Origin: Bordetella pertussis 18323
Lineage (GTDB): Bacteria > Pseudomonadota > Gammaproteobacteria > Burkholderiales > Burkholderiaceae_B
NCBI RefSeq assembly: GCF_000306945.1
Contig: NC_018518.1
Coordinates: 1,860,001 to 1,924,000 of the forward strand
Length of the DNA stretch: 64,000 nucleotides
Reading direction: 5' to 3'
Under the pieces are notes generated by a model. It had not been told where the DNA came from. It saw only the letters and a program-made list of their open reading frames with translations, and did no database searches. Both the position numbers and the translations under genes were made by a program. Shown in pieces: positions 2,630 to 24,583 of the stretch (its first letter is position 1; each line of letters begins with the position of its first letter).

Positions 2630-3660
2630 TGTGATGTCTCAATAGGTTGTTCATCCAGGCCGGACCTGGGATGCTGTGGTTACCACGCCATCGCAACTCA
2701 GGGCAGGACACTGGATGAACAACCATAAGCATGCGCGATTGACCCGCCTAGGTCGAGCCCTTCTTGTTAACAGGGTGATGCAACAGAACTGGACGATGAG
2801 GCAGGCCAGCCAGGCGGCAGGGGTGAGCCTGCGCACCGGTTACAAGTGGCTTGCCCGCTTCCGAAGCGAAGGTCTGGACGGCCTGCTTGACCGCAGTTCT
2901 CGCCCGCACCGCAGCCCGAAGGCCTGTGCGCCCGAGCAGGTTGAGCACTTCGCCCAGCAGCGCCGCCAGCGTCTGCCGCTGTGGCGCATCGCGCGTGAAG
3001 CCGGCCGCAGCCTGGCCACCGTGGCGCGGTATATGGAACGCATCGGCCTGAGTCGACTCGCCTCGTTGGAGCCGCCGGCGCCGGTGCGCCGCTATGAACG
3101 CGCCAGCCCAGGCGAGCTGCTGCACATCGACACCAAGCGGCTGGGCCGCATCCGGGGCGTGGGCCATCGCATCACCGGCGATCGGGCCCAGAACCGCAAC
3201 CGCGGCATTGGCTGGGACGCTGTGCACCTGGCCATCGATGACTTCTCGCGCGTGTCCTTTGCTCGCATCCTCGACGATGAAGGCGGCGATCAGTGCGCTG
3301 AGTTCCTGCGCCAAGCCACCGCCTACTACGCCAGTCTGGGCGTGCGCATCGACCGCGTGATGACCGACAACGGCAGCGGCTACGTCTCCAGGACCTTTCG
3401 GGCGGTGTGCGTGGAGCTGGGAATCCGTCACATCCGCACCCGCCCCTACACCCCCAAGACCAACGGCAAGGCCGAGCGCCTCGTGCAGACCTGCTTACGG
3501 GAGTGGGCATACGCCAGGCCCTACACGAGCTCAGCCGAACGACAGGCTGCCTTGCAGCCCTTCATTGACCGCTACAACTGGTATCGGCCACACTCCGCTC
3601 TCGGACATCAGCCACCCATCACGCGTATCCCAGATGTGAATAACCTATTGAGAATCGACA
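2630..3660 (+). mobile_element. IS481-family element, IS1002-like
   Basis: A 1031-bp insertion sequence with imperfect terminal inverted repeats (left TGTGATGTCTCAATAGGTTG; right end complement TGTCGATTCTCAATAGGTTA). It is flanked by identical 6-bp target copies GCTAGC (2624-2629 and 3661-3666), so this insertion looks original and unrearranged. Its transposase is clearly related to but distinct from that of the six IS481 copies. Size and relationship fit IS1002, but IS1663 is an alternative I cannot exclude without a database. Its right-hand GCTAGC directly abuts an IS481 copy. Confidence 0.85.
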
Positions 3661-3665
3661 GCTAG
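2715..3665 (+). CDS. Transposase of the IS1002-like element
   Basis: A 316-residue DDE transposase of the IS481 family. An N-terminal helix-turn-helix part (about residues 1-110) precedes the rve-type catalytic core, with candidate catalytic residues D139 (LLHIDTKR), D218 (MTDNGS) and E254 (NGKAERL). The start chosen is ATG 2715, giving MNNHKHARL, which aligns with the start of the IS481 transposase. The stop codon TAG is not in the element: it is the TAG of the flanking CTAG target, so the last residue (Ser) is set by the insertion site. Confidence 0.92.
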   Translation: MNNHKHARLTRLGRALLVNRVMQQNWTMRQASQAAGVSLRTGYKWLARFRSEGLDGLLDRSSRPHRSPKACAPEQVEHFAQQRRQRLPLWRIAREAGRSLATVARYMERIGLSRLASLEPPAPVRRYERASPGELLHIDTKRLGRIRGVGHRITGDRAQNRNRGIGWDAVHLAIDDFSRVSFARILDDEGGDQCAEFLRQATAYYASLGVRIDRVMTDNGSGYVSRTFRAVCVELGIRHIRTRPYTPKTNGKAERLVQTCLREWAYARPYTSSAERQAALQPFIDRYNWYRPHSALGHQPPITRIPDVNNLLRIDS

Positions 3666-4612
3666 CTGTGAACTGTCAATAGGTTGTATTCGTCCAGGTT
3701 GAGTCTGGAGATGGGTACAGCGCGCCCGATGCCTTGGTGGGGTCGATGCCAGTTGTAGTGGTGTAGCCAGGATTTCATGGCATCGGCTCGGTGTTGGGAG
3801 TTCTGGTAGGTGTGAGCGTAAGCCCACTCACGCAAGGCCGACTGGATGAAGCGTTCGGCCTTGCCATTGGTCTGTGGGCGGTAAGGTCGGGTAAAGCGGT
3901 GCTTGATGCCCAGCTCATGGCACAGCGCGGCGAAGGCGCGGCTGCGAAAGGCCGAGCCATTGTCGGTGAGCAAGCGCTGGATGGTCACGCCCAGGCGCTG
4001 GTAGTAGGCCACTGCGTCCTTGAGGAACTGGACGGCGCTGGGGAAGCGCTCGTCGGGGTGGATGTCGGTGAAGGCCACGCGGGCGTGGTCATCGATGGCC
4101 ACGAAGACGAAGTCCCAGCCGGCCCCCTCAACGGTATCGCGTCGGTTGCCCGTGACCCGGTGGCCAGGGCGCTGGATACGTCCCAGCTTCTTGATGTCGA
4201 TGTGCAGCAGATCGCCGGGGGCCTGATGCTCGTAGCGCACCACCGGCTCGGCCGGCTCCAGGTCGGCCAGGTGCGACAGACCGGCGCGGGCCAGGACGCG
4301 GCTGACGGTGCTGGCTGACACGCCCAGCGCCTGGGCGATGCGCGCTTGGGTCAGCCGCTTGCGGCGCAGCTCCACGATAGCCAGCGCCTTGGCCGGCGCA
4401 ATCGCTCGGGGCGAGACCGTCGGGCGCGAGGACGCATCGGCCAAGCCCGCCTGGCCCTGAGCCAGGAAGCGGCCCAGCCATTTGCGCACAGTCGGCGCGG
4501 TGACCCCATAGGCGCGGGCCGCTTCAGGCACACAAACTTGATGGGCGATCAATTGCTGGACCATTTCGAGTCGACGTAGGAAGGTCAATCGGGCATGCTT
4601 ATGGGTGTTCAT
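3662..4612 (-). CDS. IS481 transposase (copy 1)
   Basis: An intact 316-residue transposase of the IS481/rve family. A helix-turn-helix pair (about residues 10-110) is followed by the DDE core with D139 (LLHIDIKK), D217 (LTDNGSAF) and E253 (NGKAERF); the D-to-E gap is 35 residues. The start MNTHKHARL lies about 97 bp inside the element. Its TAG stop is supplied by the CTAG target outside the element, leaving a C-terminal Ser. Confidence 0.96.
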   Translation of the reverse strand: MNTHKHARLTFLRRLEMVQQLIAHQVCVPEAARAYGVTAPTVRKWLGRFLAQGQAGLADASSRPTVSPRAIAPAKALAIVELRRKRLTQARIAQALGVSASTVSRVLARAGLSHLADLEPAEPVVRYEHQAPGDLLHIDIKKLGRIQRPGHRVTGNRRDTVEGAGWDFVFVAIDDHARVAFTDIHPDERFPSAVQFLKDAVAYYQRLGVTIQRLLTDNGSAFRSRAFAALCHELGIKHRFTRPYRPQTNGKAERFIQSALREWAYAHTYQNSQHRADAMKSWLHHYNWHRPHQGIGRAVPISRLNLDEYNLLTVHS

Positions 4613-4833: not shown

Positions 4834-5785
4834 CTAGATGTGAACTGTCAATAGGTTGTATTCGTCCAGGTTGAGTCTGGAGATGGGTACAGCGCGCCCG
4901 ATGCCTTGGTGGGGTCGATGCCAGTTGTAGTGGTGTAGCCAGGATTTCATGGCATCGGCTCGGTGTTGGGAGTTCTGGTAGGTGTGAGCGTAAGCCCACT
5001 CACGCAAGGCCGACTGGATGAAGCGTTCGGCCTTGCCATTGGTCTGTGGGCGGTAAGGTCGGGTAAAGCGGTGCTTGATGCCCAGCTCATGGCACAGCGC
5101 GGCGAAGGCGCGGCTGCGAAAGGCCGAGCCATTGTCGGTGAGCAAGCGCTGGATGGTCACGCCCAGGCGCTGGTAGTAGGCCACTGCGTCCTTGAGGAAC
5201 TGGACGGCGCTGGGGAAGCGCTCGTCGGGGTGGATGTCGGTGAAGGCCACGCGGGCGTGGTCATCGATGGCCACGAAGACGAAGTCCCAGCCGGCCCCCT
5301 CAACGGTATCGCGTCGGTTGCCCGTGACCCGGTGGCCAGGGCGCTGGATACGTCCCAGCTTCTTGATGTCGATGTGCAGCAGATCGCCGGGGGCCTGATG
5401 CTCGTAGCGCACCACCGGCTCGGCCGGCTCCAGGTCGGCCAGGTGCGACAGACCGGCGCGGGCCAGGACGCGGCTGACGGTGCTGGCTGACACGCCCAGC
5501 GCCTGGGCGATGCGCGGCTTGGGTCAGCCGCTTGCGGCGCAGCTCCACGATAGCCAGCGCCTTGGCCGGCGCAATCGCTCGGGGCGAGACCGTCGGGCGC
5601 GAGGACGCATCGGCCAAGCCCGCCTGGCCCTGAGCCAGGAAGCGGCCCAGCCATTTGCGCACAGTCGGCGCGGTGACCCCATAGGCGCGGGCCGCTTCAG
5701 GCACACAAACTTGATGGGCGATCAATTGCTGGACCATTTCGAGGCGACGTAGGAAGGTCAATCGGGCATGCTTATGGGTGTTCAT
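4834..5785 (-). pseudogene. IS481 transposase (copy 2), frameshifted
   Basis: The same transposase as the other IS481 copies, but the extra base near 5516 (GCGCGGC where other copies have GCGCGC) breaks the frame at about residue 90, just after LRRKRLTQA. The N-terminal DNA-binding part is then separated from the DDE core, so the copy should be inactive unless ribosomes slip or the base is a sequencing error. The last codon reads ATC (Ile) because the flank is GCTAGA. Confidence 0.9.
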
Positions 5786-7905: not shown

Positions 7906-8000
7906 AACGTCGCATCATGCAGGAATAGCTCGAATACTATAGCAATATGGGCGTGACCTCCATAGCATGGCAAAAACCCCTCCTGTACACCGAGACCGCC
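7906..8000. promoter_or_regulatory. Divergent promoter region, LysR-box candidate
   Basis: The 95-bp gap between the divergent LysR and DUF3604 genes contains ATAG-N8-CTAT (7925-7940), an inverted repeat of the size and AT-richness of LysR-type recognition sites. Its position between regulator and target is typical for the family. Binding is inferred only. Confidence 0.4.
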
Positions 8001-10252
8001 ATGCCGCACTCCAACTACGCCCGCCACCTCATGGGCTCCGCCACCATAGATCCCACCGGCGCCTTCGAGGCGGGCAGCTTCGCCAGCTTCACCCTCACCT
8101 ACACCGCCGGCTACTTCGGCATCGACGACACCGGCTCGATCAAGATCGTGCACCGCTTCGCCAGCGACATGGGCAAGCCGCAGTTCACCGATCCGCAGGG
8201 CTGGAACTACACCACCGTCGAAGCCGGCAATGGCGCGGTGCTGCACGTCGAGTACGACGGCAAGCGCAATATCCGCCCGTGGGACAAGACCCTGTTCATC
8301 CGCGTCGTGCGCGGCTATCTCGAGGAAGGCGAACAGATCATCGTGCGCTTCGGCGATACCCGCCAAGGCTCGCCCGGCATGCGCGTGCAGACCTTCCACG
8401 AGCCGACCTTCGAATTCAAGGTGCTGTGGTGGACGCTTTCGCCACGTACAACTATGTCGAGATCGAGGCCTCGCCGACGATCTCCGTGGTGGCCGGCCCC
8501 CCTGTCCGGTACAAGGCCGTGCTGCCCAGTCTGTCGCTGGCCGGCCAGCCGCTGCGCCTGGGCTTCAAGGGCGAGGACAAATGGGGCAACCCCTCCGACC
8601 AGGCGCAGAGCCGCTACACCCTGCGCAGCAACCTGCGCATGGCGCGGATGCCCGAGTCCTTCGAAATGGCCGCCGGCGCCTATGCCCACGCGATCGAAGG
8701 CATCGTCGCCGCCGAGACCGGCGACCTGCGCCTGGAAGTCCTGCACGGCGACCGGGTCGTGGCGCGCAGCAACCCGTGCCGCGTCGCCGCGCAGGCGGCG
8801 CGCAACCACTACTGGGCCGACCTGCACGGCCAGTCGGAAGAGACCATCGGCACCAACTCCGCCGAGGAGCTCATCCTGTTCGCGCGCGACCGCGCCTTCC
8901 TGGACGCGATGAGCCACCAGGGCAACGATTTCCAGATCACCCAGGAATTCTGGGAGCACCTGAACGCCCTGACCGCCCGCTACGACGAACCCGGCCGCTT
9001 CGTGATCTTCCCCGGCTACGAATGGTCGGGCAATACCGGCCTGGGCGGCGACCGCAACGTGCTGTACCTGCACGAAGGCCGTCCGCTGCACCGTTCGTCC
9101 CACGCCCTGGTGGACGACCTGTCCGACCTGGACTCCGACGCCAACAGCGCCGATGCGCTGTTCCAGGCCATCAAGGACGAGGACGCCGTCGTCTTCGCGC
9201 ACATCGGCGGCCGCTACGCCGACATCACGCTGTCGCACGACCCGCGCATCGAACGCTCCATCGAAATCCACTCCGACTGGGGCACGTTCGAATGGCTGCT
9301 CGAGGACGCCTTCAAGCAGGGCTACCGTGTCGGCATCCTCGCCAACAGCGACGGCCACAAGGGACGCCACGGCGCCAGCCATCCCGGCGCCTCGCTGTTC
9401 GGCGCCTACGGCGGACTGAGCTGCCTGATCGCCGACACGCTGAGCCGCCAATCGCTGGCCGAGTGCCTGCGCCAGCGCCGCCACTACGCCACCACCGGCT
9501 GCCGCGCCTACCTGGACGTGGCGGCGCACTTCGATGCGCCGGCGCGCCGCTACGCCGAAGATCCCAGGCTCGCCCCCGATGCCGCGAGCACGCAGGTGCG
9601 CAGCGCGGACATGGGCGCCATCCTCGCCTGCGACACCGGCATGGTCGAGTTCGAATTCGACCTCGCCACCGAGGCGCCGATCGAATCGGTGGAAGTGCGC
9701 AACCGCATGGACGTGGTCCAGACCCTGCGTCCCTTCAAGCCAGCCGACCTGGGCCGCCGCATCCGCATCGTCTGGGAAGGCTCGGAGTACCGCGGCCGCG
9801 GCCGGCAGACCGTATGGGACGGCAGCGCCACGCTGCAAGACAACGCCTTTGTCGACCCCAAACCCATCAATTTCTGGAACCTCGACAAGACGCTGCAACA
9901 GCCGCAGCCCAACCACCTGTGCTGGCAGTCGCTGACCACGGGCGGCTTCAGCGGCGTGGACGTGATGCTCGAAGACGCCGGGCGCGGCACGCTGTGCATC
10001 GACACCGAACTGATCCAGGCGCGCATCCCGGTGGCCGACATCGGCCTGGAGCCGCTGGTCTTCGAGAACGGCGGCATACGCCGGCGCCTGCAAGTGTTCC
10101 GCCTGCCCGACGAAAACCCCGCCTGCCACCTGAAGGCGCGCGTGCAGGTCCCCTTGCATACGGGACAGGACAACGCCCTGTACCTGCGCGCCACGACGGA
10201 AGACGGGTTCTTCATCTACTCCAGCCCGATCTATATAGAACGAAAGGCGTAA
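8001..10252 (+). pseudogene. DUF3604-type metallophosphoesterase-like gene, frameshifted
   Basis: The protein would be about 750 residues. Residues 1-142 read from ATG 8001 (MPHSNYARHLMGSATIDPTG); the rest is in another frame from about 8430, beginning VDAFATYNYVEIEASPT. Removing two bases in GTGCTGTGGTGG (8421-8432) would join them. The second part has PHP-like metal-binding motifs: NHYWADLHGQSEETIGTN, FPGYEWSGNTGLGGDRN and ANSDGHKGRHG. DUF3604 proteins are poorly characterised and often sit with transporters. Here it adjoins a LysR gene and a Bug receptor. The frameshift would cut the protein before its catalytic domain. Confidence 0.8.
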
Positions 10253-10493: not shown

Positions 10494-11981
10494 ATGGATG
10501 TGCTGCCAGGCCGCCCTCGCGCCCGGCGGCGCCGACGCAGGAGACAATCGCGTGCCAACATTCTGGCTATCGGGGTCCATCTCCCGCGGCTGCGCCTGTC
10601 CCGCGGGGCCATGGCAAACGCGCTGGGCTGGCTGAGCGGCGGCGCGGGCGCCGGCAAAGGCAGCCGCACCCTGGCCTACTGGGACGAAGACAGCGTCACC
10701 ATGGCCGTGGCCGCGGCGCGCCACGCCCTGGCCCGCCAGGCCGCCCCCGCCATCGACGCCTTGCAGTTCGCCAGCACCACGCCGCCGTTCGCCGAACCGC
10801 AGAACGCGGCCTTCGTGCGCGCCGCCTTGCGCCTGCCGGCGACCACCCTGACCCAGGATGTCCACGGCACGCCGCGCGCCGGCCTGCTTGCCTTGCACAT
10901 GGCCCTGGAGAGCGGCACGCGGACCCTGGTCGCGGCGGCGGACCTGCCCACGGCGCTGCCGGGCAGCACGGCCGAGGCGCGCGCCGGCGATGGCGGCGCC
11001 GCAGTGCTGACCGGCGACGAACCGGGGCTGTTGCGCTACCTGGGCGGCGCCAGCCTGAGCGCGCCGTTCACCGACCGCTACCGCGCCGCCGGCCACGACT
11101 ACCCGCAGGAATGGGAGGAGCGCTGGCTGCGCGAAGCCGGCTACCTGGAGCTGGTCCATGACGCCATCGGCCGTGCGCTGCAGGCGGCGTCGCTGCGGCC
11201 CGAACAGGTCGACCATTTCGTGCTGCCGTGCCCGGTGCCCGGCGTGGCGGCGGCCGTCGCCGCCAAGGCCGGCCTGGGCCAGGCGCGCCTGGCCAGCGCC
11301 CTGGCCGAGAACTGCGGCGACACCGGCGCGGCGCATGCCTTCGTCATGCTGGGCCGCGCGCTCGAAGATGCCGCGCCCGGCCAGAAGGTGCTGGTCGCCC
11401 AGTTCGGCCAGGGCGCGACCGCGCTGCTGTTCGAGGCCGACGAGGCGGTGGCCGGCCTGGCCGCGCCGGTCTCGCCCGCCCTGCGGGACGGGCTGGCCGA
11501 GGACAACTACATGAAGCTGCTGGCCTTTCGCGGCCGCATCGCCTGGGACCGCGGCCTGCGCGGCCGTTTCCTGGTCAACGAAGCCTTGAGCACGGCCTGG
11601 CGCAACGCCGATGCCTTGCTCGGCTTCGTGGGCGGACGCTGCCGCGAAACGGGCCAGGTCCAGTTCCCGCCCACGCGCCTGGCCGCCACGGGCGGCTTCC
11701 ATCTCGATACCCAGGAACCCTGGCCGCTGGCGGACCGGGGCGGACGCATCGCCACCTTCACCGCCGACCTGCTGGCATTTTCGCCGTGCCCGCCGAATTG
11801 CTACGGGCTGGTCGACATCGATGGCGGCGGGCGGGTGCTGATGGAGTTCACCGACCCGCAGGCCAGCCAGCTCGAGGCCGGCGCGGCCGTGGCGTTCGCC
11901 TTGCGCATCAAGGATCTCGACCCGCAAACCGGCTACCGCCGCTATTTCTGGAAAGCGCTGGCCGCGCCGACGGCCGACTGA
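10494..11981 (+). CDS. Thiolase-fold (HMG-CoA synthase-like) protein fused to a DUF35 OB-fold domain
   Basis: Up to 495 residues. The N-terminal two-thirds is thiolase-fold, like HMG-CoA synthase/ketoacyl synthase III (ILAIGVHLPRLRL; DIDALQFASTTPPF-like segments; AENCGDTGAAHAFVMLG; VAQFGQGATALLF). The last ~130 residues resemble the DUF35 OB-fold partner of thiolases (GQVQFPPTRL). Where relatives carry the acylated cysteine this protein reads TQDVHGTPRAGLLAL, with no Cys, and the usual His region reads VLPCPVPG, so it may not be a standard synthase. The start is uncertain: ATG 10494 gives an Arg-rich leader, whereas GTG 10552, seven bases after CAGGAGA, is out of frame by one base. It is first in an operon with a thiolase, a CoA ligase and a hydrolase. 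Confidence 0.75.
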   Translation: MDVLPGRPRARRRRRRRQSRANILAIGVHLPRLRLSRGAMANALGWLSGGAGAGKGSRTLAYWDEDSVTMAVAAARHALARQAAPAIDALQFASTTPPFAEPQNAAFVRAALRLPATTLTQDVHGTPRAGLLALHMALESGTRTLVAAADLPTALPGSTAEARAGDGGAAVLTGDEPGLLRYLGGASLSAPFTDRYRAAGHDYPQEWEERWLREAGYLELVHDAIGRALQAASLRPEQVDHFVLPCPVPGVAAAVAAKAGLGQARLASALAENCGDTGAAHAFVMLGRALEDAAPGQKVLVAQFGQGATALLFEADEAVAGLAAPVSPALRDGLAEDNYMKLLAFRGRIAWDRGLRGRFLVNEALSTAWRNADALLGFVGGRCRETGQVQFPPTRLAATGGFHLDTQEPWPLADRGGRIATFTADLLAFSPCPPNCYGLVDIDGGGRVLMEFTDPQASQLEAGAAVAFALRIKDLDPQTGYRRYFWKALAAPTAD

Positions 11982-11991
11982 GGACAGACTG

Positions 11992-13188
11992 ATGGCTACA
12001 GGAATCAAGGATCGCGTCGCCATTCTGGCGATGGGCTGTTCCCGTTTCGGCGAACGCTGGGACGTGGGCCAGGAAGAATTGATGGTCGAGGCCTACGCCG
12101 AGGCGCTCGCGAGCGCCGGCATCGAGCCGCGCGCCATCGAGGCGGCCTGGTACTCGTCGCACTATGACGACATCGGCGCGGGCAAGGCCGGCACGCCCAT
12201 GGCCATGGCCCTGCGCCTGCCCGACATCGGCGTGACGCGCGTGGAGAACTTCTGCGCCGGCGGCACCGAGGCGTTTCGCGGCGCCGTCTACGCGGTCGCC
12301 TCCGGCGCCGCGGACATCGCGCTGGCGCTCGGGGTGGAAAAGCTGAAAGACACCGGCTTCGCCGGTCTGCCGCTGGCCTCGCGCGGCACGCTGGCGCCCA
12401 TGTACCTGCCCACGCACAGCAACCCGGGCAACTTCGCGCAGCTGGCCCGTGCCTACCAGGCCCGCCACGGCGTGGCCCGGGAGGACCTCAAGGCGGCCAT
12501 GGCCCATACCTCGATGAAAAGCCATGCCAACGCCTTGCACAATCCCAAGGCGCACCTGCGCAAGGCCATCAGCCGCGAACAGGCCGCCGGCGCGCCGCTG
12601 GTGGCCGACCCCATCGGACTGTTCGATTGCTGTCCGGTGTCGGACGGCGCCGCCTGCGCCATCGTCACCACCCCCGAGATCGCCCGCAGCCTGAACCGCG
12701 GCCCGCTGGTCCTGGTCAAGGCCATCCAGCTGGCCACGTCCAACGGCTGGGAGCTGCAGCAATCGGACTGGGACGGCTCGTACGTGCACACCACCCGCGT
12801 GGCGGCGCGCAAGGCGTACGCCGAAGCGGGCATCGACGATCCGCGCGCGCAGCTCAGCCTGACCGAATTGCACGACTGCTTCTCGATCACCGAACTGGTG
12901 ACGCTGGAGGACATCGGCCTGGCCGAGCCCGGCACGGCCTGGCGCGGCATGCTCGACGGCCGCTTCGATGCCGACGGGGCGCTGCCCTGCCAGATAGACG
13001 GCGGCCGGAAATGCTTCGGCCATCCCGTGGGGGCCTCGGGGCTGCGCATGCTCTACGAGGCCTGGCTGCAACTGAGCGGCCGCGCCGGCGCGCGCCAGCT
13101 GCCCGCGCCCTCGCTGGCCCTGACCCACAATCTGGGCGGCGCGCCCGCGCAGAACGTGTGTTCGATCACAATACTCGGCGCGGCTTGA
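11992..13188 (+). CDS. Thiolase-family protein (SCP-x/acetyl-CoA acetyltransferase type)
   Basis: A 398-residue thiolase of the SCP-x/lipid-transfer type, which cleaves or forms 3-ketoacyl-CoA bonds. Visible active-site elements are C88 in VENFCAGGTEA, the HDCFS segment near residue 295 and GHPVGASG near residue 346. It starts 10 bp after the thiolase-fold/OB fusion, so the two proteins probably form a complex, as thiolase, HMG-CoA synthase and DUF35 do in archaea and as thiolase-like/DUF35 aldolases do in steroid breakdown. That comparison is family knowledge; the reaction here is inferred. Confidence 0.88.
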   Translation: MATGIKDRVAILAMGCSRFGERWDVGQEELMVEAYAEALASAGIEPRAIEAAWYSSHYDDIGAGKAGTPMAMALRLPDIGVTRVENFCAGGTEAFRGAVYAVASGAADIALALGVEKLKDTGFAGLPLASRGTLAPMYLPTHSNPGNFAQLARAYQARHGVAREDLKAAMAHTSMKSHANALHNPKAHLRKAISREQAAGAPLVADPIGLFDCCPVSDGAACAIVTTPEIARSLNRGPLVLVKAIQLATSNGWELQQSDWDGSYVHTTRVAARKAYAEAGIDDPRAQLSLTELHDCFSITELVTLEDIGLAEPGTAWRGMLDGRFDADGALPCQIDGGRKCFGHPVGASGLRMLYEAWLQLSGRAGARQLPAPSLALTHNLGGAPAQNVCSITILGAA

Positions 13189-13260: not shown

Positions 13261-14580
13261 ATGCTTCACCCTGAGATAGAACTGCTGGACCGAGACGGCA
13301 TCCTCAAGATCCAGCGCGAGCGGCTGGCCCGATTGGGCCAGCGCCTGCAGCACAGCCCGCAATGGCGCGAGCATTTCGCCAGCGTCGGCATGACGCCCGG
13401 CGACCTTGCCTCGCCGGACGCCTTCGAACACCTGCCCTTCCTGCAGAAGGCCGACCTGCGCCAGCAGTATCCCTACCCGTTCCTGACCGTTCCCCTCGAA
13501 GACGTGGAGCGGTTCGTCGCCACCTCGGGCACCACCGGCCTGCCGGTGATGTTCGGCCTGACGCGGCGCGACCTGCACGAGCTGCTGCCCAGCCAGACCG
13601 CGCGCCTGCTGGCCGCGGCGGGCGTGCGCCGCGGCGCGCGCGCCTACCAGGGCTACGGCTACGGCCTGTGGATCGGCGGCCTGGCGCTGGACCAGGGCTT
13701 CAAGGCAATGGACTGCGTCAACTTCCCGCTGGGCCCGGGCCGCGGCGACCTGGCGGCGCGCTGGATGCGCGACCATGCCTACGAAGTGGCCTCGATGTCG
13801 CCGCTGTGGCTGATGAGCCTGGCGCAGGCCGCGCGCGCCCAGGGCATCAACCCCAAGACCGACTGGGCGCTGCGCACCGCCATCCTGGGCGGCCAGTCGG
13901 TCTCGGCCGAATTCCGCGCCCAGCTGGAAGCGGAAATGCCCGAAGGATTCGTGTCGCACAACATCTACGGCACCACCGAGGCGGGCGGCCCGATCCTGGC
14001 CATCTCGACGCCGTACACGCACGCCGACGACGAACTGCATCTCATCAATGAAGACACGGTGCTGACCGAGATCCTGGATCCGGTCACGCTCAAGCCGGTC
14101 TCCGAAGGGGAAGTGGGCGAGATCGTCATCACCACCCTGACCAAGGAAGCCTCGCCCGTGATCCGCTGGCGCACGCATGACCTGGTCAGGCTGTCGTCGC
14201 ACCCCTACGACTGCCCGTCGGGACGGCGCGGCATGCGCAAGATCGGACGCATCATCGGGCGCTCCGACGACATGATCAAGTTCAAGGGCGTGATCGTTTT
14301 CCCGTCGCAGATCGAGGACGTCATCACCGGCGTCGCCGGCGTGGTCAAGGAAGCCTGGCAGATCTATATCGACAAGGAATGCATGACCATCGGCACCATG
14401 ACCGTGGCGATCGAGGCGTCCGCCCAGGCCGGCCGCCCGGCCGAACAGCTCAGCAATGAAGTGGGCCGGGAAATCCACGCGCGCCTGGGCATGAAGGTCT
14501 GCGTCGAATGCCATCCCGAAGGCACGCTGCCGCGCTACGAAGCCAAGGCCGTGCGCGTACTGCATCGTCCCGAAGCATGA
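13261..14580 (+). CDS. Phenylacetate-CoA ligase family (PaaK-like) acyl-CoA ligase
   Basis: A 439-residue adenylate-forming ligase that activates a carboxylic acid to its CoA thioester with ATP. The phosphate-binding motif ATSGTTGLPV is at residues 87-96, the second signature YGTTEAGGP near 236-244, and a C-terminal domain begins around GRSDDMIKFKG (about 336). The length matches PaaK, but no phenylacetate genes (paaABCDE) are nearby, so the substrate is probably another aromatic or cyclic acid. AGGAGG lies 6 bases before ATG 13261. Its stop overlaps the next start (ATGA). Confidence 0.88.
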   Translation: MLHPEIELLDRDGILKIQRERLARLGQRLQHSPQWREHFASVGMTPGDLASPDAFEHLPFLQKADLRQQYPYPFLTVPLEDVERFVATSGTTGLPVMFGLTRRDLHELLPSQTARLLAAAGVRRGARAYQGYGYGLWIGGLALDQGFKAMDCVNFPLGPGRGDLAARWMRDHAYEVASMSPLWLMSLAQAARAQGINPKTDWALRTAILGGQSVSAEFRAQLEAEMPEGFVSHNIYGTTEAGGPILAISTPYTHADDELHLINEDTVLTEILDPVTLKPVSEGEVGEIVITTLTKEASPVIRWRTHDLVRLSSHPYDCPSGRRGMRKIGRIIGRSDDMIKFKGVIVFPSQIEDVITGVAGVVKEAWQIYIDKECMTIGTMTVAIEASAQAGRPAEQLSNEVGREIHARLGMKVCVECHPEGTLPRYEAKAVRVLHRPEA

Positions 14581-15452
14581 CCGCGCGCGATCCGCTGGCC
14601 GCCATCCGCGCCCGCCTGGCCGAGGTCACGGCCTGCTGGCAGGCGGCCGAGTCGCTGGCGCAGATCCGCGCCAGCTTCGCCGACTACCTGGCCGAGGTGG
14701 GGCCGCGCGGCGCGGCGATGGCCCGCCCCCGGCCCCAACCCCTGGCGCCGGCGCTGGCCGGCGCCTGGATCGGCCAGGGTGCGCGGCGCGCGCTGTACTG
14801 CCATGGCGGCGGTTTCCAGATCGGCGGCATCGCCTCGCACGCCAGCCTGATCGCCCGGCTGGCCGAGGCCGGCCAGGCCCGCATCCTGGCCGTCGAGTAC
14901 CGGTTCGCGCCCGAACACCGCTATCCGGCGGCGATCGACGACGCCTTCGCGGCCTACCAGTGGCTGCTGGCCAACGACGGCGCGCCAGCGGCCATCATCG
15001 GCGACTCCGCGGGCGGCGCCCTGGCGTTGCAGACCGCGCAGCGCGCGCGCGATGCCGGCCTGCCGCTGCCGCGCTCCCTCGTGCTGCTCTCCCCCTGGCT
15101 CGATCTGTCCATGCAAGGCCGCAGCTACGTGGAGCTGGCCGAACAGGACATTTTCTCCAAGCCGGCACAGCTGCGCGCGATGGCGCGCAGCTATCTGGGA
15201 CACCTCGGCCCGCCGCCGGCCTCGCCGCTCTGGGACGATCTGTCAGGCTTGCCGCCCATCGTCGTGCACGCCGGCGCGCACGACATCACGCTGGACGACT
15301 CGCATACGCTGGCCGCACGCGTGCGCGCCGCCGGCGGGCAGGTGCAACTGCAGGTCTTTCCCGGCATGTGCCATCACTTCCAGATCTACGAAGCGCTGGC
15401 CGAAGCGCAGGAGTCGATCGACGCGCTGGGCCGCCATCTGCGGCAGGACTAG
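14577..15452 (+). CDS. Alpha/beta hydrolase, hormone-sensitive-lipase family
   Basis: A 291-residue esterase-like protein with the oxyanion motif HGGG at residues 76-79, nucleophile S144 in GDSAGG, and probable partners D235 (GAHDITLDD) and H265 or H266 (GMCHHF). The start chosen is ATG 14577, which overlaps the PaaK-like stop in ATGA, indicating translational coupling. In the operon it could release an ester, lactone or CoA thioester during breakdown of the imported compound. The substrate is not predictable. It ends 30 bp from the convergent CoA-transferase gene. Confidence 0.87.
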   Translation: MTARDPLAAIRARLAEVTACWQAAESLAQIRASFADYLAEVGPRGAAMARPRPQPLAPALAGAWIGQGARRALYCHGGGFQIGGIASHASLIARLAEAGQARILAVEYRFAPEHRYPAAIDDAFAAYQWLLANDGAPAAIIGDSAGGALALQTAQRARDAGLPLPRSLVLLSPWLDLSMQGRSYVELAEQDIFSKPAQLRAMARSYLGHLGPPPASPLWDDLSGLPPIVVHAGAHDITLDDSHTLAARVRAAGGQVQLQVFPGMCHHFQIYEALAEAQESIDALGRHLRQD

Positions 15453-15482: not shown

Positions 15483-16631
15483 TCATGCCTGGACGATCAG
15501 CCCGCTATCGAGCGCGCCGGCCACGCGCTCGGGCGCCAGGCCCCATTCGTGCAGCACCTCGACCAAATGCGCGCCCACTGCGGGCGCGGCGGCGGGCTGG
15601 CGCGCCGGCGTGGCGCTCAGGCGCGGCGCCGGCGCCGGCTGCGTCACCCCCTCGACGTCGATATAGCCCGCGCGGGCCGCCGCATGCGGATGATGGGCGG
15701 CTTCGCGCCAATCCAGGACGGGCGTCACGCAGGCGTCGCTGTCCTCGAACAGCGCCGCCCAATGGTCGCGCGGCCGGGTGGCGAACAGCGCCGCCAGCCG
15801 CGCGCGCAAGGCCGGCCATTGGGCAGGATCGCGATCGTGGGTATACACGGCCGGGTCCAGGCCCAGCCGTTCGACCAGCAGGTCATGAAAGCGCCGTTCG
15901 ACGCAGGCCACGGCCAGAAAGCGCCCGTCGGCGCAGGCATAGGTGGCGTAGAAATAGGCGCCGCCGTCCAGCAGGTTGCCCTCGCGCCGGTCGGACCAGC
16001 CGCCGCCGGCGCGAAAGCCCCAGAACATCGCAGCCAGCAGGCCCGCCCCGTCCACCATGGCGGCGTCGACGACCTGGCCCGGCGCCCCGCCACGCACCGC
16101 CAGCAAGGCGGCCAGCATGCCGAACGCCAGCAGCATGCCGCCGCCGAAATCCGCCACGTAGTTCAGCGGCACCGACGGCGGACGGTCGGCCGGCCCGATG
16201 GCGTGCAGCGCCCCGGTCAGGCCCAGGTAGTTCAGATCATGTCCGGCCTGGCGGGCCAGCGGTCCCTGCTGGCCCCAGCCCGTCATGCGCCCGTACACCA
16301 GCCGCGGCTGGCGCCGCAGGCATTCCTCGGGCGCCAGGCCCATGCGCTCCATCACGCCGGGCCGGAAACCTTCGATCAACCCATCGGCGGCGCCGACCAG
16401 CTCCAGCAGCAGATCGCTGGCGCCGGGCGCGCGCAGATCCAGCGCCAGCGAGCGGCGGCCGCGCGCCAGCACGTCGAAGCGGCTGTCCAGCAAGGGGAAG
16501 TCCCCCTTCCTGTGCGCCGCATGGACGCGCACCACGTCGGCCCCGTGATCGGCCAGCATCATGGCCGCGAACGGCGCCGGCCCCAGTCCCACCATTTCGA
16601 TGATGCGCAAACCCTGTAAGGCCGGCGCCAT
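15483..16631 (-). CDS. Class III CoA-transferase / alpha-methylacyl-CoA racemase family
   Basis: A 382-residue family III CoA-transferase (CaiB/BaiF type). The start MAPALQGLRIIEMVGLGPAP has GGAGAGGGC before ATG 16631. The family motifs ADHGADVVRVH, SLALDLRAPGASD, GLIEGFRPGVMERMG and GHDLNYLGLTGAL are present. GHDLNYLGLTGAL resembles the racemase subgroup (AMACR/Mcr), which carries its catalytic His and Asp in this region, so racemisation of a 2-methylacyl-CoA is as likely as CoA transfer. A racemase would fit beta-oxidation of a methyl-branched side chain. Last gene of the leftward operon. Confidence 0.85.
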   Translation of the reverse strand: MAPALQGLRIIEMVGLGPAPFAAMMLADHGADVVRVHAAHRKGDFPLLDSRFDVLARGRRSLALDLRAPGASDLLLELVGAADGLIEGFRPGVMERMGLAPEECLRRQPRLVYGRMTGWGQQGPLARQAGHDLNYLGLTGALHAIGPADRPPSVPLNYVADFGGGMLLAFGMLAALLAVRGGAPGQVVDAAMVDGAGLLAAMFWGFRAGGGWSDRREGNLLDGGAYFYATYACADGRFLAVACVERRFHDLLVERLGLDPAVYTHDRDPAQWPALRARLAALFATRPRDHWAALFEDSDACVTPVLDWREAAHHPHAAARAGYIDVEGVTQPAPAPRLSATPARQPAAAPAVGAHLVEVLHEWGLAPERVAGALDSGLIVQA

Positions 16632-16648: not shown

Positions 16649-16963
16649 TCACTGCGGCGCGACCCTGACGGTCAGCCCTTCCAGCGCCGGCGCGACCGTA
16701 ATCTGGCAGGAAAGACGCGACTCGGCGCGGACATCGTTGGCGAAGTCCAGCATGTCGCGCTCCATGTCGCCGGGTTCGCCCACGGCCTGCATCCATTCCT
16801 GTCCCACATGCACATGGCAGGTGGCGCAGGTGCACGCGCCGCCGCACTCGGCCGCGATGCCCGGCACATTGGCGCGCCGGGCGCACTCCATCAGGCTCAA
16901 TCCGTCGTCCGCCTGGACGATGTGGCGAGCCTCATTGGAGGCGATGAAAATAATCGTTGTCAT
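16649..16963 (-). CDS. [2Fe-2S] ferredoxin, adrenodoxin type
   Basis: A 104-residue ferredoxin with the C-X5-C-X2-C-X36-C pattern of vertebrate-type/adrenodoxin ferredoxins (C40, C46, C49, C86; C44 is extra). It lies between the CoA-transferase and SDR genes in the operon that encodes a Rieske oxygenase. It is the obvious electron donor for that oxygenase. No flavin reductase gene is present in the cluster, so the reductase must come from elsewhere. Confidence 0.9.
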   Translation of the reverse strand: MTTIIFIASNEARHIVQADDGLSLMECARRANVPGIAAECGGACTCATCHVHVGQEWMQAVGEPGDMERDMLDFANDVRAESRLSCQITVAPALEGLTVRVAPQ

Positions 16964-16984: not shown

Positions 16985-17707
16985 TCAAGCGCCGCAGCCC
17001 ATCCCGCCGGAGACGCCCAGCGCCTCGCCGGTGATGAAGCCGGCGGCTTCGGAGCATAAAAACGCAATCGCCGCGGCGACCTCCTCGGGCCGGCCCAGGC
17101 GGCGCAGCAGCGTCAACGCCTCCAGGTCGGCGCGCATCTGCGCGCCCGCGACGTCGACGGCGCGCGCCAGCATCGGCGTGTCGACCGGTCCAGGCAGCAC
17201 GGCATTGGCGGTCACGCCGTAGCGCGCGTTCTCGCGCGCAATCGAGCGGGTGAATCCGAGCAGGCCCGCCTTGGCGGCGGCGTAGACCGCCCCGCCGCGC
17301 GAACCCAGGCGGCCCGCCTCGGACGACACATTGACGATGCGGCCGAAGCGCGCCGCCTGCATGCCGGGCAGCACGCCCAGCGTGAAGGCGAACGCACTCT
17401 CCAGGTTGACGGCCAGCAGCGCGCGCCAGTCCTGCGGGGTCGTCCGGGAAAAGAACGCGTGCTGGTCGGCGCCGACATTGTTGACCAGGATGTCGAACGG
17501 CGCGGCGCCGGCGCAGAATCCGGCCACCGCCTCGGCGTCCGTGGCGTCGAGCGCGACAAAGCGGGCGCCGGTGGCCTCGGCCACGCTGGCGCCCGCCTGC
17601 GCGTCGCGATCGCAGAACGTGACGCGCAGGCCGTCGCGGCATAGCTGCGCGACGGTGGCCGCGCCGATGCCGTTGGCGCCGCCGGTAACGAGCGCGTGCC
17701 GCGGCAT
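16985..17707 (-). CDS. Short-chain dehydrogenase/reductase
   Basis: A 240-residue classical SDR, NAD(P)-dependent. The cofactor motif TGGANGIG is at residues 8-15, NNVGA near 76-80, catalytic Ser in NVSSEAG (about 128-129) and YAAAK at 142-146. An acidic residue after the second strand (CDRD) favours NAD. Start ATG 17707 overlaps the hydratase stop by one base (TGATG). It could oxidise either a cis-diol made by the Rieske oxygenase or a 3-hydroxyacyl-CoA made by the hydratase; the sequence does not decide. Confidence 0.92.
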   Translation of the reverse strand: MPRHALVTGGANGIGAATVAQLCRDGLRVTFCDRDAQAGASVAEATGARFVALDATDAEAVAGFCAGAAPFDILVNNVGADQHAFFSRTTPQDWRALLAVNLESAFAFTLGVLPGMQAARFGRIVNVSSEAGRLGSRGGAVYAAAKAGLLGFTRSIARENARYGVTANAVLPGPVDTPMLARAVDVAGAQMRADLEALTLLRRLGRPEEVAAAIAFLCSEAAGFITGEALGVSGGMGCGA

Positions 17708-18519
17708 CAGTGCCTCCGGAAAACCGGCTGGCGCTTCCCGATCACCGCCGCCAGCCCTTCCCGGCTGTCGGCCGTGGCCGACAGGGTCGATACGGTACGG
17801 GCCTCCTCGGGCAGGGCCCGTTCGACCTGCAGCGTGTTCCACAACAGGCGCTTGGTCGCCGCCTGCGCCAGCGGCGCTCCGGCGGCGTAGGTCGCGGCCA
17901 GGCGGGCTGCGCTCTCGTCCAGCTCGGCGTCGGCGACCACCTGGTTGACCAGGCCCATCTCGAGCGCCTCGTCGGCGCCCACCGTGCGGTTCGACAGCAT
18001 CATTTCCATGGCGCGGCGAAAACCGATCAGATGCGGCAGGATGACCGAGCTGCCCGCGTCCGGCGCCATGCCCACGCGCGTGGCGCCGGCCAGGAACCTG
18101 GCGCCCTGCGCGGCGACGACGATGTCGGCCGCGCATACCAGGCCCAGGCCGCCGCCGCCGGCCGCGTAGCCCTGCACCTGCGCCACCACGACGGCGTCCA
18201 GCCTGATCAGCGCGCCGATGGCCATTTGCAGCCAGGCGGTCACTTCGCGCAGGAAGTCGCCCAGGCCCTCGCCCTTGCTGGCGAACTCGCGCACATCGCC
18301 GCCGGCGCAGAAATGCTTGCCCGCGCCGCGCAACAGCACCACGCGCACATCGGGCTCGCGGTGGCAGCGCATCACCGCTTCGTGGAAAGCCTTCATAAAT
18401 TCGATATTCATGCCGTTGGCCGCATCGGGGCGGTTCAACGTGATGCGGGCCACATGGTCCGCATAGTCCAGCAGCACAGGACCCTCGCCAATCCAGGTCT
18501 CGGGGTTTGCAGTCGTCAT
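17707..18519 (-). CDS. Enoyl-CoA hydratase/isomerase family protein
   Basis: A 270-residue crotonase-fold protein. Oxyanion-hole segments are GKHFCAGGDVREFA and VQGYAAGGGLGL-like residues near 110-118. An acidic residue in GMAPDAGSSVILPHLIG occupies the second catalytic region. I prefer the ATG at 18519, which has AGGAG six bases upstream; the ATG at 18525 sits directly on that AGGAG. Likely hydrates an enoyl-CoA intermediate in the same pathway as the thiolase and SDR. Confidence 0.9.
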   Translation of the reverse strand: MTTANPETWIGEGPVLLDYADHVARITLNRPDAANGMNIEFMKAFHEAVMRCHREPDVRVVLLRGAGKHFCAGGDVREFASKGEGLGDFLREVTAWLQMAIGALIRLDAVVVAQVQGYAAGGGGLGLVCAADIVVAAQGARFLAGATRVGMAPDAGSSVILPHLIGFRRAMEMMLSNRTVGADEALEMGLVNQVVADAELDESAARLAATYAAGAPLAQAATKRLLWNTLQVERALPEEARTVSTLSATADSREGLAAVIGKRQPVFRRH

Positions 18520-18529
18520 CGTCATCTCC

Positions 18530-19057
18530 TCATACCAGGAAGGACAGGGTGAAAATCGGTTTGGCGCTATTGACCAGGGCAATCTTCTTGCGCACCAGGC
18601 GGAAGGCGCCATCGACCAGCCGGAGCCGGTACTCGTTGCGCGCGGCCCAATGCGTTTCGCCGCGCAGGTTGTCCTCGTAGATCAGCACATTGGCCAGCGC
18701 CGTCACTTCCTGCCCCGCGACATCGACGATCTCGATGTTGGAAATCAGGCGCGCCAGCGCCGAGCGCGGCGTCTGCGTATGGCGGCGGCCGGTCAGCAAC
18801 TGTTCGATGCGGACACGGATGCGCGACCGGTTGTCGTAGATCACCGACATCTTCTGCTCGGGATCGATATCGTCGCCATTGGCCGGGATCCAGTAGATGG
18901 CGTCGTCCTCCCAGAGCGACTCCCAGCCCTGGTAGTCGTGCGTGTCCTGCAGCCGGGCCTCGTGATAGAGAAACTGCGACACCCGATGGTGCAGCGTCAG
19001 TTCGTCCAGCGCCTGCAGATCGTCAGCGGCCGGACGGGTTTCGGGACGTGCGGTCAT
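18530..19057 (-). CDS. Aromatic-ring-hydroxylating dioxygenase, beta subunit
   Basis: A 175-residue small subunit of a Rieske oxygenase (SnoaL/NTF2-like fold), structural rather than catalytic. Recognisable features are VSQFLYHEARLQDTHDYQGW, WESLWEDDAIYWIPA and the end FRLVRKKIALVNS. It starts 5 bp after the alpha subunit gene, as usual for an alpha3beta3 enzyme. Start ATG 19057. Confidence 0.93.
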   Translation of the reverse strand: MTARPETRPAADDLQALDELTLHHRVSQFLYHEARLQDTHDYQGWESLWEDDAIYWIPANGDDIDPEQKMSVIYDNRSRIRVRIEQLLTGRRHTQTPRSALARLISNIEIVDVAGQEVTALANVLIYEDNLRGETHWAARNEYRLRLVDGAFRLVRKKIALVNSAKPIFTLSFLV

Positions 19058-19062
19058 CCGGA

Positions 19063-20319
19063 TTACTCCTGCATCAGCTTGAAATAGTGGCGCCAGATCC
19101 CGCGCTGCGGGACCTCGTCGGTCGAATGCCCGACGGTGTAGCCGTTCTCGTCCTTGCGCTCGCGATGCAGGCCGCGGGTCAGCATCAGCCATTCGGGGTC
19201 GCGGATCTTCGCGCCGCGGTGGTTGCGCTCGTACATCTCCGTATCGTCGGCCAGCAACAGGCCGGCCGGCCCGACCGAACCCATGGTCTGCTGGCGCAGC
19301 CGGCGGTTGATGTCGGGCGCGTCCTTGAACTGCACCGCCGTCACGTGCTGGATGGTTTCCTCCACCGACACCGGCTGCAGCACGAAGATCTGGATCTCCG
19401 CGATGAACAGATTGGGGAAGATCATCGTGTGCGGCGAGCCGTCGATCATGATCTGGCGCGCCCGCTCGGCGCCGTAGGCCTGGTCCATCGCGACGGCGTA
19501 GTCCGCCATCCGCTCGACCGACGAGCCGAACCAGTACAGCGGCTTGTCGATGCGCCGCCACTCCGGCCGCAGATCGAACTCGGTATGGCCATTGCCGTAG
19601 TCGCGCGTCAGCGCGGTCGAATCCTTGCCGTAGAGATTGGCGATCGGACTGTTGGTGACCTGGAAGATGGAACCATGCACGAAACCGGGGTGGTAGCCGT
19701 CGGTCTCGTTCTCCAGCATGAACTTCCAGTTGGCCTTGGCCCGGTGCTGCAGGAACCCGGCGCGCAGGTCCAGCTCGCCGTTGGGCGAGTTGTCGCACAA
19801 CTGGTCGATGGCGGCCTTGGCCCCGCCCAGGTGCTCGTCCAGGCTCGGGCCGGTTTCGGCGAACGATCCGAACACGAAGCCGCGATAGATGCCGATCCGC
19901 GCCACCTTGCCGAGCCCGACGCCGGCCTTGGAGGCGCCCTCGTAGCCGTCGGCCAGCGCGTACCCCATCAGGTCGCCGGTGTTCGAGAAAGTCCACGAGT
20001 GGTACGGGCACGTGAAAGTGCTGCGGTTGCCTTCCTTGTAGGCGCACAGCTGGTTGCCCCGGTGCGGACACTTGTTCAGCAACAGGCGGATCTCGCCGTC
20101 CCGGTCCCGCAGCAACAGCACGGGCGTCGTGCCGATGCTCTTGGTCACGTAGTCGTTCTTGTTGGGCACTTCGCTGACGTGACCCACGTATACCCAGGTC
20201 CTGTGCCAGATCTTGTCCAGCTCCTCCTGGAAGATCTCCGGATCGACGTACAGGCGGCTATTGATCCGCGTGGGCTCGATCAGCGCCCGGTAGTCGATCT
20301 CGTTCCTGATGAAAGACAT
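19063..20319 (-). CDS. Aromatic-ring-hydroxylating dioxygenase, alpha subunit (Rieske)
   Basis: A 418-residue catalytic subunit. Rieske [2Fe-2S] ligands are C84, H86 (CPHRG) and C104, H107 (CPYHSW). The mononuclear iron site is in ETDGYHPGFVH, with H210 and H215 and the bridging D207. Start ATG 20319 has GGAGGT seven bases upstream. The family activates O2 to hydroxylate or demethylate ring compounds; substrate class cannot be read reliably. First gene of a six-gene leftward operon (alpha, beta, hydratase, SDR, ferredoxin, CoA-transferase). Confidence 0.95.
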   Translation of the reverse strand: MSFIRNEIDYRALIEPTRINSRLYVDPEIFQEELDKIWHRTWVYVGHVSEVPNKNDYVTKSIGTTPVLLLRDRDGEIRLLLNKCPHRGNQLCAYKEGNRSTFTCPYHSWTFSNTGDLMGYALADGYEGASKAGVGLGKVARIGIYRGFVFGSFAETGPSLDEHLGGAKAAIDQLCDNSPNGELDLRAGFLQHRAKANWKFMLENETDGYHPGFVHGSIFQVTNSPIANLYGKDSTALTRDYGNGHTEFDLRPEWRRIDKPLYWFGSSVERMADYAVAMDQAYGAERARQIMIDGSPHTMIFPNLFIAEIQIFVLQPVSVEETIQHVTAVQFKDAPDINRRLRQQTMGSVGPAGLLLADDTEMYERNHRGAKIRDPEWLMLTRGLHRERKDENGYTVGHSTDEVPQRGIWRHYFKLMQE

Positions 20320-20358
20320 CGCCCTCACCTCCGATGGTTTGTGAATTATTTAATAATC

Positions 20359-23556: not shown

Positions 23557-24583
23557 GTTGTATGCATGGTTCATCCGAACCGGATTTGAGAAACTGGAAA
23601 TCGCCGATCCCCCAGTTCACTCAAGGAGCCCGGCCGGATGAACACCCATAAGCATGCCCGATTGACCTTCCTACGTCGACTCGAAATGGTCCAGCAATTG
23701 ATCGCCCATCAAGTTTGTGTGCCTGAAGCGGCCCGCGCCTATGGGGTCACCGCGCCGACTGTGCGCAAATGGCTGGGCCGCTTCCTGGCTCAGGGCCAGG
23801 CGGGCTTGGCCGATGCGTCCTCGCGCCCGACGGTCTCGCCCCGAGCGATTGCGCCGGCCAAGGCGCTGGCTATCGTGGAGCTGCGCCGCAAGCGGCTGAC
23901 CCAAGCGCGCATCGCCCAGGCGCTGGGCGTGTCAGCCAGCACCGTCAGCCGCGTCCTGGCCCGCGCCGGTCTGTCGCACCTGGCCGACCTGGAGCCGGCC
24001 GAGCCGGTGGTGCGCTACGAGCATCAGGCCCCCGGCGATCTGCTGCACATCGACATCAAGAAGCTGGGACGTATCCAGCGCCCTGGCCACCGGGTCACGG
24101 GCAACCGACGCGATACCGTTGAGGGGGCCGGCTGGGACTTCGTCTTCGTGGCCATCGATGACCACGCCCGCGTGGCCTTCACCGACATCCACCCCGACGA
24201 GCGCTTCCCCAGCGCCGTCCAGTTCCTCAAGGACGCAGTGGCCTACTACCAGCGCCTGGGCGTGACCATCCAGCGCTTGCTCACCGACAATGGCTCGGCC
24301 TTTCGCAGCCGCGCCTTCGCCGCGCTGTGCCATGAGCTGGGCATCAAGCACCGCTTTACCCGACCTTACCGCCCACAGACCAATGGCAAGGCCGAACGCT
24401 TCATCCAGTCGGCCTTGCGTGAGTGGGCTTACGCTCACACCTACCAGAACTCCCAACACCGAGCCGATGCCATGAAATCCTGGCTACACCACTACAACTG
24501 GCATCGACCCCACCAAGGCATCGGGCGCGCTGTACCCATCTCCAGACTCAACCTGGACGAATACAACCTATTGACAGTTCACA
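23541..24583 (+). mobile_element. IS481: IS481 copy 3, at a rearrangement junction
   Basis: A 1043-bp forward IS481. Left flank GCTAGT (23535-23540) is inside livM; right flank CCTAGG (24584-24589) is inside an antitoxin-like gene. The flanks do not match, and the two sides belong to unrelated loci. The leader carries CGATCCCCC where the other copies have CACCCCCCC. Confidence 0.97.

Follow-up and report, generated by a model that had tools for sequence, protein, structure and literature searches.

An HMG-CoA synthase-like/DUF35 fusion without the catalytic cysteine and histidine accompanies an SCP-x-type thiolase in Bordetella pertussis and other prokaryotes

In a 64,000-nucleotide stretch of Bordetella pertussis 18323 (NCBI RefSeq contig NC_018518.1, positions 1,860,001 to 1,924,000; hereafter the window, in whose own numbering positions are given), a gene for a 495-residue fusion of a 3-hydroxy-3-methylglutaryl-coenzyme A (HMG-CoA) synthase-like domain and a DUF35 oligonucleotide/oligosaccharide-binding (OB) domain is followed by a gene for a 398-residue SCP-x-type thiolase. 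We found that the synthase-like domain is without the catalytic cysteine and histidine of HMG-CoA synthases in the window fusion and in the relatives compared, and that fusion and thiolase occur together almost without exception. It is likely, in our judgment, that the two proteins constitute a two-protein thiolase, in which the 398-residue subunit would be catalytic and the inactive synthase/DUF35 chain would serve as its scaffold. The features on which this rests are as follows.

10494..11981, + strand: fusion gene, 495 residues (Pfam and NCBIfam searches; family profile compared with PDB)
About residues 21-330 of the fusion: HMG-CoA-synthase-like domain, limits approximate
About residues 374-490 of the fusion: DUF35 OB domain, limits approximate
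11730..11894, + strand: OB-fold match PF01796 (OB_ChsH2_C), residues 413-467, 28.6 bits against a cut-off of 27.1
10860..10886, + strand: VHGTPRAGL, former nucleophile motif, residues 123-131 (in the alignment with archaeal HMG-CoA synthases and PhlA, P127 occupies the archaeal Cys position and R128 follows)
11220..11243, + strand: VLPCPVPG, former histidine motif, residues 243-250 (in the same alignment, P245 occupies the archaeal His position)
11992..13188, + strand: SCP-x-type thiolase of NCBIfam PRK06157, 398 residues, 681 bits against a cut-off of 403; C88, H294 and H344 invariant in aligned relatives
12253..12258, + strand: codons of C88 and the next Ala within NFCAGG; C88 in 76/76 aligned thiolases

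A reference alignment of 120 archaeal HMG-CoA synthases and two PhlA stretches was used to locate the old active site. The archaeal Glu, Cys, His and Asn, all four present in 120/120 of these synthases, correspond to T95, P127, P245 and D276 in the window fusion and to Cys, Gly, Gln and Asp in PhlA. A sequence-only reading of this DNA had placed the lost nucleophile in VHGTPRAGL and the lost histidine in VLPCPVPG, and the alignment confirmed both places and both replacements. The family was then represented by the best 120 of 301 matches among 8000 scored candidates (homologs), by 81 loci (80 of at least 581 confirmed relatives, plus L011; L, G and P numbers are our handles for loci, genomes and proteins) and by 11 plasmid copies, these being the annotated regions out of 12 taken from 38 plasmid records with a match, with the unannotated L111 left out; the homolog and locus sets partly overlap and hence are not independent. 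At the Cys site, cysteine occurred in 0/120 homologs (3 gapped), 0/81 loci and 0/11 plasmid copies (1 gapped), and at the His site, histidine occurred in 0/120 homologs (1 gapped), 0/81 loci and 0/11 plasmid copies. The fusion thus lacks the residues that define an archaeal-type HMG-CoA synthase, and the proposed alignment check revealed no conserved Cys/His pair in the active site of the fusions compared. Because the loss is common to homologs, loci and plasmid copies, it is a family trait rather than local decay, and a local pseudogene as the reason for the missing cysteine was ruled out, the relatives examined sharing the loss. Candidate replacement cysteines were also considered, none of which is general (C129 in 29/121, C246 in 63/121 and C274 in 80/121 sequences).

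The domain assignments are consistent with this picture. Residues 21-313 of the fusion reached 130 of the 244 bits required by the HMG-CoA synthase model PRK04262, TIGR00748 gave 73 bits against a cut-off of 353, and residues 229-309 matched Pfam ACP_syn_III_C with 33.7 bits; because its PRK04262 score stays under the cut-off, the fusion is a relative, not a member, of the HMG-CoA synthases. PF01796 exceeds its curated cut-off, identifying a DUF35 OB-fold, and these PRK04262, ACP_syn_III_C and PF01796 matches bear out the fused architecture proposed from the sequence alone. The zf-ChsH2 match stayed below threshold (18.5 bits, cut-off 23.2). Among the best 60 of 91 matches of the fusion family profile to PDB, PhlA ranked at the top (133 and 125 bits), archaeal HMG-CoA synthase came next (110 bits) and DUF35 chains were absent; a search with the single fusion sequence found an archaeal DUF35 chain at E 0.018.

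The thiolase, whose open reading frame (ORF) is separated from the end of the fusion ORF by 10 bp on the same + strand, proved as normal as it had been described, with 681 bits to its model and the motifs NFCAGG (C88), HDCF (H294) and GHP (H344) intact, and its curated score and motifs place it in PRK06157 (NF004810, acetyl-CoA acetyltransferase). Among the aligned thiolases, C88 was kept in 76/76, and HDCF and GHP each in 75/75 of the non-gapped sequences; cysteine, HDCF and GHP were likewise kept in 10/10 plasmid thiolases from Proteobacteria, Rhodococcus, Streptomyces, Halorubrum and Natrinema. Against solved structures, the thiolase scored 159 bits with 7yvy, 157 with the archaeal acetoacetyl-CoA thiolase, 141 with SCP2 thiolase, 139 with BbsB and 70 with PhlC. 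C88 would presumably accept the acyl group with the assistance of H294 and H344, as we take to hold for the thiolase superfamily. In the eleventh plasmid copy, on a Paraburkholderia sp. PGU19 plasmid (L112, 9434-10705), the partner thiolase was seen split over two frames and had no annotated gene, and it is not among these ten.

The partnership between the two genes, also anticipated from the sequence, was supported by gene order and by genome content. A thiolase gene stands near the fusion in 75/81 loci, on the same strand in 75/75 and with a gap of <=150 bp in 67/75. In five of the six loci without one, the contig ends <1.6 kb away, whereas the sixth, L091, has 10 kb free of thiolase; in the genomes of L038, L081, L089 and L091 a different contig encodes a thiolase of 66-67% identity. 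In 398 genomes drawn evenly across the phylum, a full-length fusion (E <1e-70) was present in 10/398 (any match in 24/398, the remaining 14 being weak, with E 1e-10 or worse), and PRK06157 exceeded its cut-off in 10/398, the top score below the cut-off being 289 bits and weaker thiolase matches occurring in 353/398. The two sets are the same ten genomes (G000, G130, G198, G206, G249, G299, G342, G406, G429 and G432), which span nine families, showing a near-obligate co-occurrence of the fusion and the PRK06157 thiolase. The two genes are adjacent in 8/10 of these genomes, with two complete pairs in G249; in G342 the fusion borders a contig end and the thiolase is found 478 bases inside a different contig, and in G206 they lie on separate contigs, not at the ends. 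One internal stop was counted in the fusion match of G198 and G406 and in the thiolase match of G299. Fusion and thiolase tree distances correlated at 0.915 over 85 pairs (the window, 74 loci and 10 plasmid pairs, with 7/81 loci left out as their thiolase was missing or partial), and 0/999 permutations reached as high a value. By the same distances, the fusion evolves ~2.3x faster than the thiolase, which might be what a scaffold shows.

Two known systems contain parts of the same kinds (papers given by PMC number are cited from excerpts). In PhlACB of Pseudomonas protegens and Chromobacterium (PDB 5m3k, 9skh), PhlA is without Cys and Glu (PMC6392133), PhlA, the DUF35 protein PhlB and the thiolase-fold PhlC line one continuous cavity, and acyl transfer uses PhlC residues only, PhlC C88 being essential (PMC6392133, PMC12955522). 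The likeness lies in the Cys-less HMG-CoA-synthase-like, DUF35 and Cys88 thiolase-fold parts, and, among the best 60 of 91 matches, no solved chain is closer to the first half of the fusion than PhlA. By contrast, PhlACB is encoded by three genes, biosynthetic and CoA-independent, whereas here the PhlA-like and PhlB-like parts share one chain, and the window pair holds the three-part composition in two chains rather than three. In the archaeal complex of thiolase, HMG-CoA synthase and DUF35 (PDB 6esq), composed of the same three folds, DUF35 ties thiolase to synthase and both share the CoA site (PMC12329534). Among solved structures, only 7yvy matches the window thiolase better than the thiolase of this complex does (157 bits). 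The suggested kinship with the archaeal parts is supported. The archaeal synthase, however, possesses Cys, His, Glu and Asn, its subunits are separate and it makes mevalonate precursors; two coupled active sites are not found here, where only the thiolase retains its residues.

Taking these precedents together with the PDB rankings, we interpret the two proteins as a thiolase and a partner that would form part of its cavity wall. By analogy with PhlA and the archaeal synthase, the synthase-like half probably persists as part of the wall around the CoA/acyl cavity, the OB half would act as a DUF35 staple binding the thiolase, and the 495-residue fusion as a whole would be a non-catalytic partner. 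The 398-residue thiolase probably does not work alone. From the sequences we infer the folds of the two proteins and a complex between them; a physical contact, a shared cavity, a direction of reaction and a kind of substrate are likewise proposed conditionally, with the reaction probably running in the degradative (cutting) direction. An alternative in which the pair acts as a PhlACB-type C-acyltransferase, placing an acyl group on an aromatic carbon without free CoA, could draw on the top rank of PhlA against the fusion family profile (133 bits among solved chains in the best 60 of 91 matches) and on the fact that PhlA is likewise without Cys, His, Glu and Asn. We nevertheless consider it quite unlikely: the window thiolase is nearer to 7yvy (159 bits), the archaeal thiolase (157), SCP2 (141) and BbsB (139) than to PhlC (70), which on scores, with no tree, puts it on another branch than PhlC, and the annotated plasmid-region neighbours are degradative CoA enzymes, with no polyketide synthase seen among them (L111 being unannotated).

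Degradative relatives also bear on the reading as a two-protein thiolase. The benzoylsuccinyl-CoA thiolase BbsAB of Geobacter (PDB 7pxp) resembles it in that a Zn-finger/OB partner accompanies a thiolase working in degradation, and BbsB scored 139 bits with the window thiolase. To our knowledge, the BbsAB partner has no HMG-CoA-synthase-like domain. In Ltp2-ChsH2 and Sal-Shy, a catabolic SCP-x-type thiolase fold is bound to a DUF35 domain (PMC12329534), and the sequence-only reading had drawn an analogy with such retro-aldolases, which would cut a beta-hydroxyacyl-CoA into a ketone or aldehyde and an acyl-CoA. The shared DUF35 domain and SCP-x thiolase fold (PMC12329534) and a hydratase-family gene in the locus fit that analogy. 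The aldolases Ltp2 and Sal, however, carry a Tyr-based site (YDHF and YDCY motifs; PMC12329534) and a partner fused to a hydratase domain, whereas the window thiolase has Cys and His, and HDCF stands in 75/75 and Cys in 76/76 of the aligned sequences; the short-chain dehydrogenase/reductase (SDR) of the locus could supply the ketone that a thiolase requires. Because the cysteine is kept and His is found where the aldolases have Tyr, the analogy went unsupported and ordinary thiolysis fits better, and we regard a retro-aldolase as very improbable here.

Several observations weigh against the pair being a catalytic thiolase with a dead scaffold, and they concern the active site, the OB half and the pairing itself. 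The loss of the accessory residues is not universal, Glu being retained in 1/120 homologs and Asn in 3/120 homologs, 2/81 loci and 3/11 plasmid copies. A cysteine two positions past the old nucleophile occurs in 29/120 homologs and 20/81 loci, the window copy being without it, and Thr or Ser directly before the old nucleophile is usual in the family; because of this downstream cysteine in about a quarter of the sequences and the usual Thr/Ser, a new activity of the synthase-like domain may be entertained. The window copy has a weak OB match and no longer has the zinc ribbon, whose CxxC and third Cys are found in 3/120 homologs, 22/81 loci and 10/11 plasmid copies. The 10 kb examined at L091 are free of a thiolase, though its genome contains one, the L047 genome yielded a 26-residue end piece (81%) and weaker matches only, and a search of the L046 genome for the partner thiolase gave none. 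The tree correlation is confounded by common species history. Since the genomic contexts of the pair vary, a single substrate does not follow.

The new activity would employ a [Thr/Ser]-x-[Arg/Lys] turn that is conserved where the active site used to be. Residue 126 is T or S in 107/120 homologs, 80/81 loci and 9/11 plasmid copies, and residue 128 is R in 115/120 homologs (2 Leu, 3 gaps) and 11/11 plasmid copies and R or K in 81/81 loci. Ser and Thr are, however, common helix caps, and the basic residue kept beside the lost Cys has an equivalent Lys, already following the Cys, in 120/120 archaeal synthases; because of these two facts the pattern can be structural. With the faster evolution of the fusion also speaking against it, such an activity seems to us hardly probable.

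The pair stands in the window beside the genes listed below, of which the ligase belongs to the conserved catabolic cluster.

13261..14580, + strand: PaaK-like acyl-CoA ligase (TIGR02155, 268 bits, under the cut-off of 646; 75-79% identity in L014-L020)
14577..15452, + strand: HSL-type alpha/beta hydrolase, Abhydrolase_3 (start inferred; listed ORF from 14508)
15483..16631, - strand: class III (CaiB-type) CoA transferase (start inferred; listed ORF to 16886)
16649..16963, - strand: 2Fe-2S ferredoxin
16985..17707, - strand: SDR dehydrogenase (start inferred; listed ORF to 18136)
17707..18525, - strand: enoyl-CoA hydratase/isomerase family protein (start inferred; listed ORF to 18612)
18530..20328, - strand: Rieske ring-hydroxylating oxygenase, beta subunit 18530-19003 (start inferred) and alpha subunit 19063-20328

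The recurring set comprises Rieske alpha/beta, hydratase, SDR, ferredoxin, CoA transferase, hydrolase, PaaK-like ligase, fusion and thiolase, and L014, L017 and L018 repeat the whole window set, except that ligase and hydrolase are encoded on the opposite strand. A Variovorax plasmid clusters ferredoxin, Rieske alpha/beta, hydratase, SDR, hydrolase, fusion and thiolase, and its cluster also contains two hydratases, a 3-hydroxyacyl-CoA dehydrogenase, an FAD oxidoreductase, an acyl-CoA dehydrogenase and a CoA transferase; a Rhodococcus plasmid has a similar gene set. Because the pair lies in a Rieske oxygenase/CoA ligase/hydratase/dehydrogenase locus, its substrate is most likely a beta-ketoacyl-CoA of a ring-derived acid. 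Elsewhere the pair accompanies MaoC, acyl-CoA dehydrogenase, electron transfer flavoprotein or acyl-CoA synthetase genes, and in Parvibaculum-like and Caulobacter-like genomes it lies near genes that we recognised by eye and take to be glmU, glmS and recG, so that it looks like a degradative thiolase module serving several settings. Among solved structures the Rieske subunits are nearest to 9o71 and 7yls, the latter of which we take to be the auxin oxygenase IadDE. The auxin (iad) locus was considered as a candidate, and the excerpts of the iad literature contain no mention of a thiolase or CoA ligase, for which reason indole-3-acetate is not assigned as the substrate.

The same two-gene pair was found in many bacteria and some archaea, as the search proposed with the sequence-only reading had asked. 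Going by record titles, most of the 80 loci are from Alphaproteobacteria, e.g. Xanthobacter, Azorhizobium, Parvibaculum, Caulobacter and Bradyrhizobium, with Betaproteobacteria represented by Sterolibacterium, Azoarcus, Thauera and Caenimonas, and the plasmid records add Rhodococcus, Streptomyces and haloarchaea, in which the gene order is thiolase then fusion. We tentatively suggest, at somewhat less than even confidence, an old and widespread degradative thiolase class of Proteobacteria, Actinobacteria and haloarchaea, in which an archaeal-type synthase would have lost its chemistry, fused to DUF35 and become the half that holds CoA and substrate, whereby a condensing complex would have come to cut bulky ring-derived acids. 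Closer to the window, the fusion was present in 0/14 other genomes of the genus and no full-length copy was found in 22 further genomes of the family; because of these two counts the cluster is patchy in the family, and it may be an acquired or selectively retained island. L014-L020 are the nearest named loci for both genes, and closer homologs are known as proteins without context, one of them from Pusillimonas sp. (P0005, 72%).

The window copy may itself be compromised, a possibility that is compatible with every reading above. The first ~20 residues of the fusion (10494-10556) are unlike those of its relatives, many of which start at about residue 21, and this copy may have a disturbed start. 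In Bordetella parapertussis the ortholog (P0002, 433 residues) is missing 61 residues of the synthase-like core (259-319 in window numbering), and the upstream DUF3604 gene appears frameshifted. On the other side, the reading frame of the window fusion stays open through all of the conserved part, and thiolase, ligase and Rieske genes each have an open frame of the full length seen in their families. That the pair is a relic here, with the fusion or the locus in decay, is in our view unlikely though well worth bearing in mind; the locus may be decaying in Bordetella pertussis and parapertussis while working in other species, and intact copies are present in other organisms. The deletion in P0002 is flanked by two short direct repeats (AGL). 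Another protein (P0008, 376 residues) is without window residues 162-278 (117 residues), inside the synthase-like domain. The upstream DUF3604 gene (7947-10252) reads as an ORF at 7947-8912, then in another frame at 7967-10252.

As to novelty, the arrangement had been put forward as not yet described, and this holds in part. We found no description, in the open-licence literature, of a Cys-less synthase-DUF35 fusion acting with PRK06157 as a two-protein thiolase; the PhlACB structures, the archaeal complex, the Cys-less PhlA (PMC6392133) and DUF35 fusions were already known, fusions of DUF35 with thiolase-superfamily domains having been reported in 2010 together with the active/inactive thiolase pair of phlABC (PMC2954200). 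Automatic annotation names the fusion 'HMG-CoA synthase', 'OB-fold domain-containing protein' or '3-oxoacyl-ACP synthase III C-terminal domain protein' and the thiolase 'acetyl-CoA acetyltransferase', and the PRK06157 family name gives no hint of the fused partner found here; the label 'HMG-CoA synthase' is misleading where the catalytic residues are absent, as here. The family lends itself to testing what a thiolase gains from a dead HMG-CoA synthase, a question that PhlA also poses, and the pair is a marker for Rieske/CoA catabolic clusters.

Within its own genome, the whole fusion protein matched only itself. Six DUF35 matches and six thiolase matches (E up to 0.001) formed six neighbouring pairs separated by ~330 bp or less, namely the window locus and pairs near 1806400, 2159500, 2265000, 2390300 and 3621300 of G000:C1. 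The weakest thiolase match (2390373-2390684, 37 bits) overlaps an ACP_syn_III match (25.1 bits). Because all six thiolase matches adjoin a DUF35 match, a DUF35 partner seems to be the rule for such thiolases in this genome, in agreement with a gene-neighbourhood remark in PMC2954200. Elsewhere in the window, full-length and partial IS481-family transposase genes were seen at 2676-3665, 3662-4612, 4834-5493 and 23638-24588, and ORFs of equal 316-residue length at 53884-54834 and 60468-61418.

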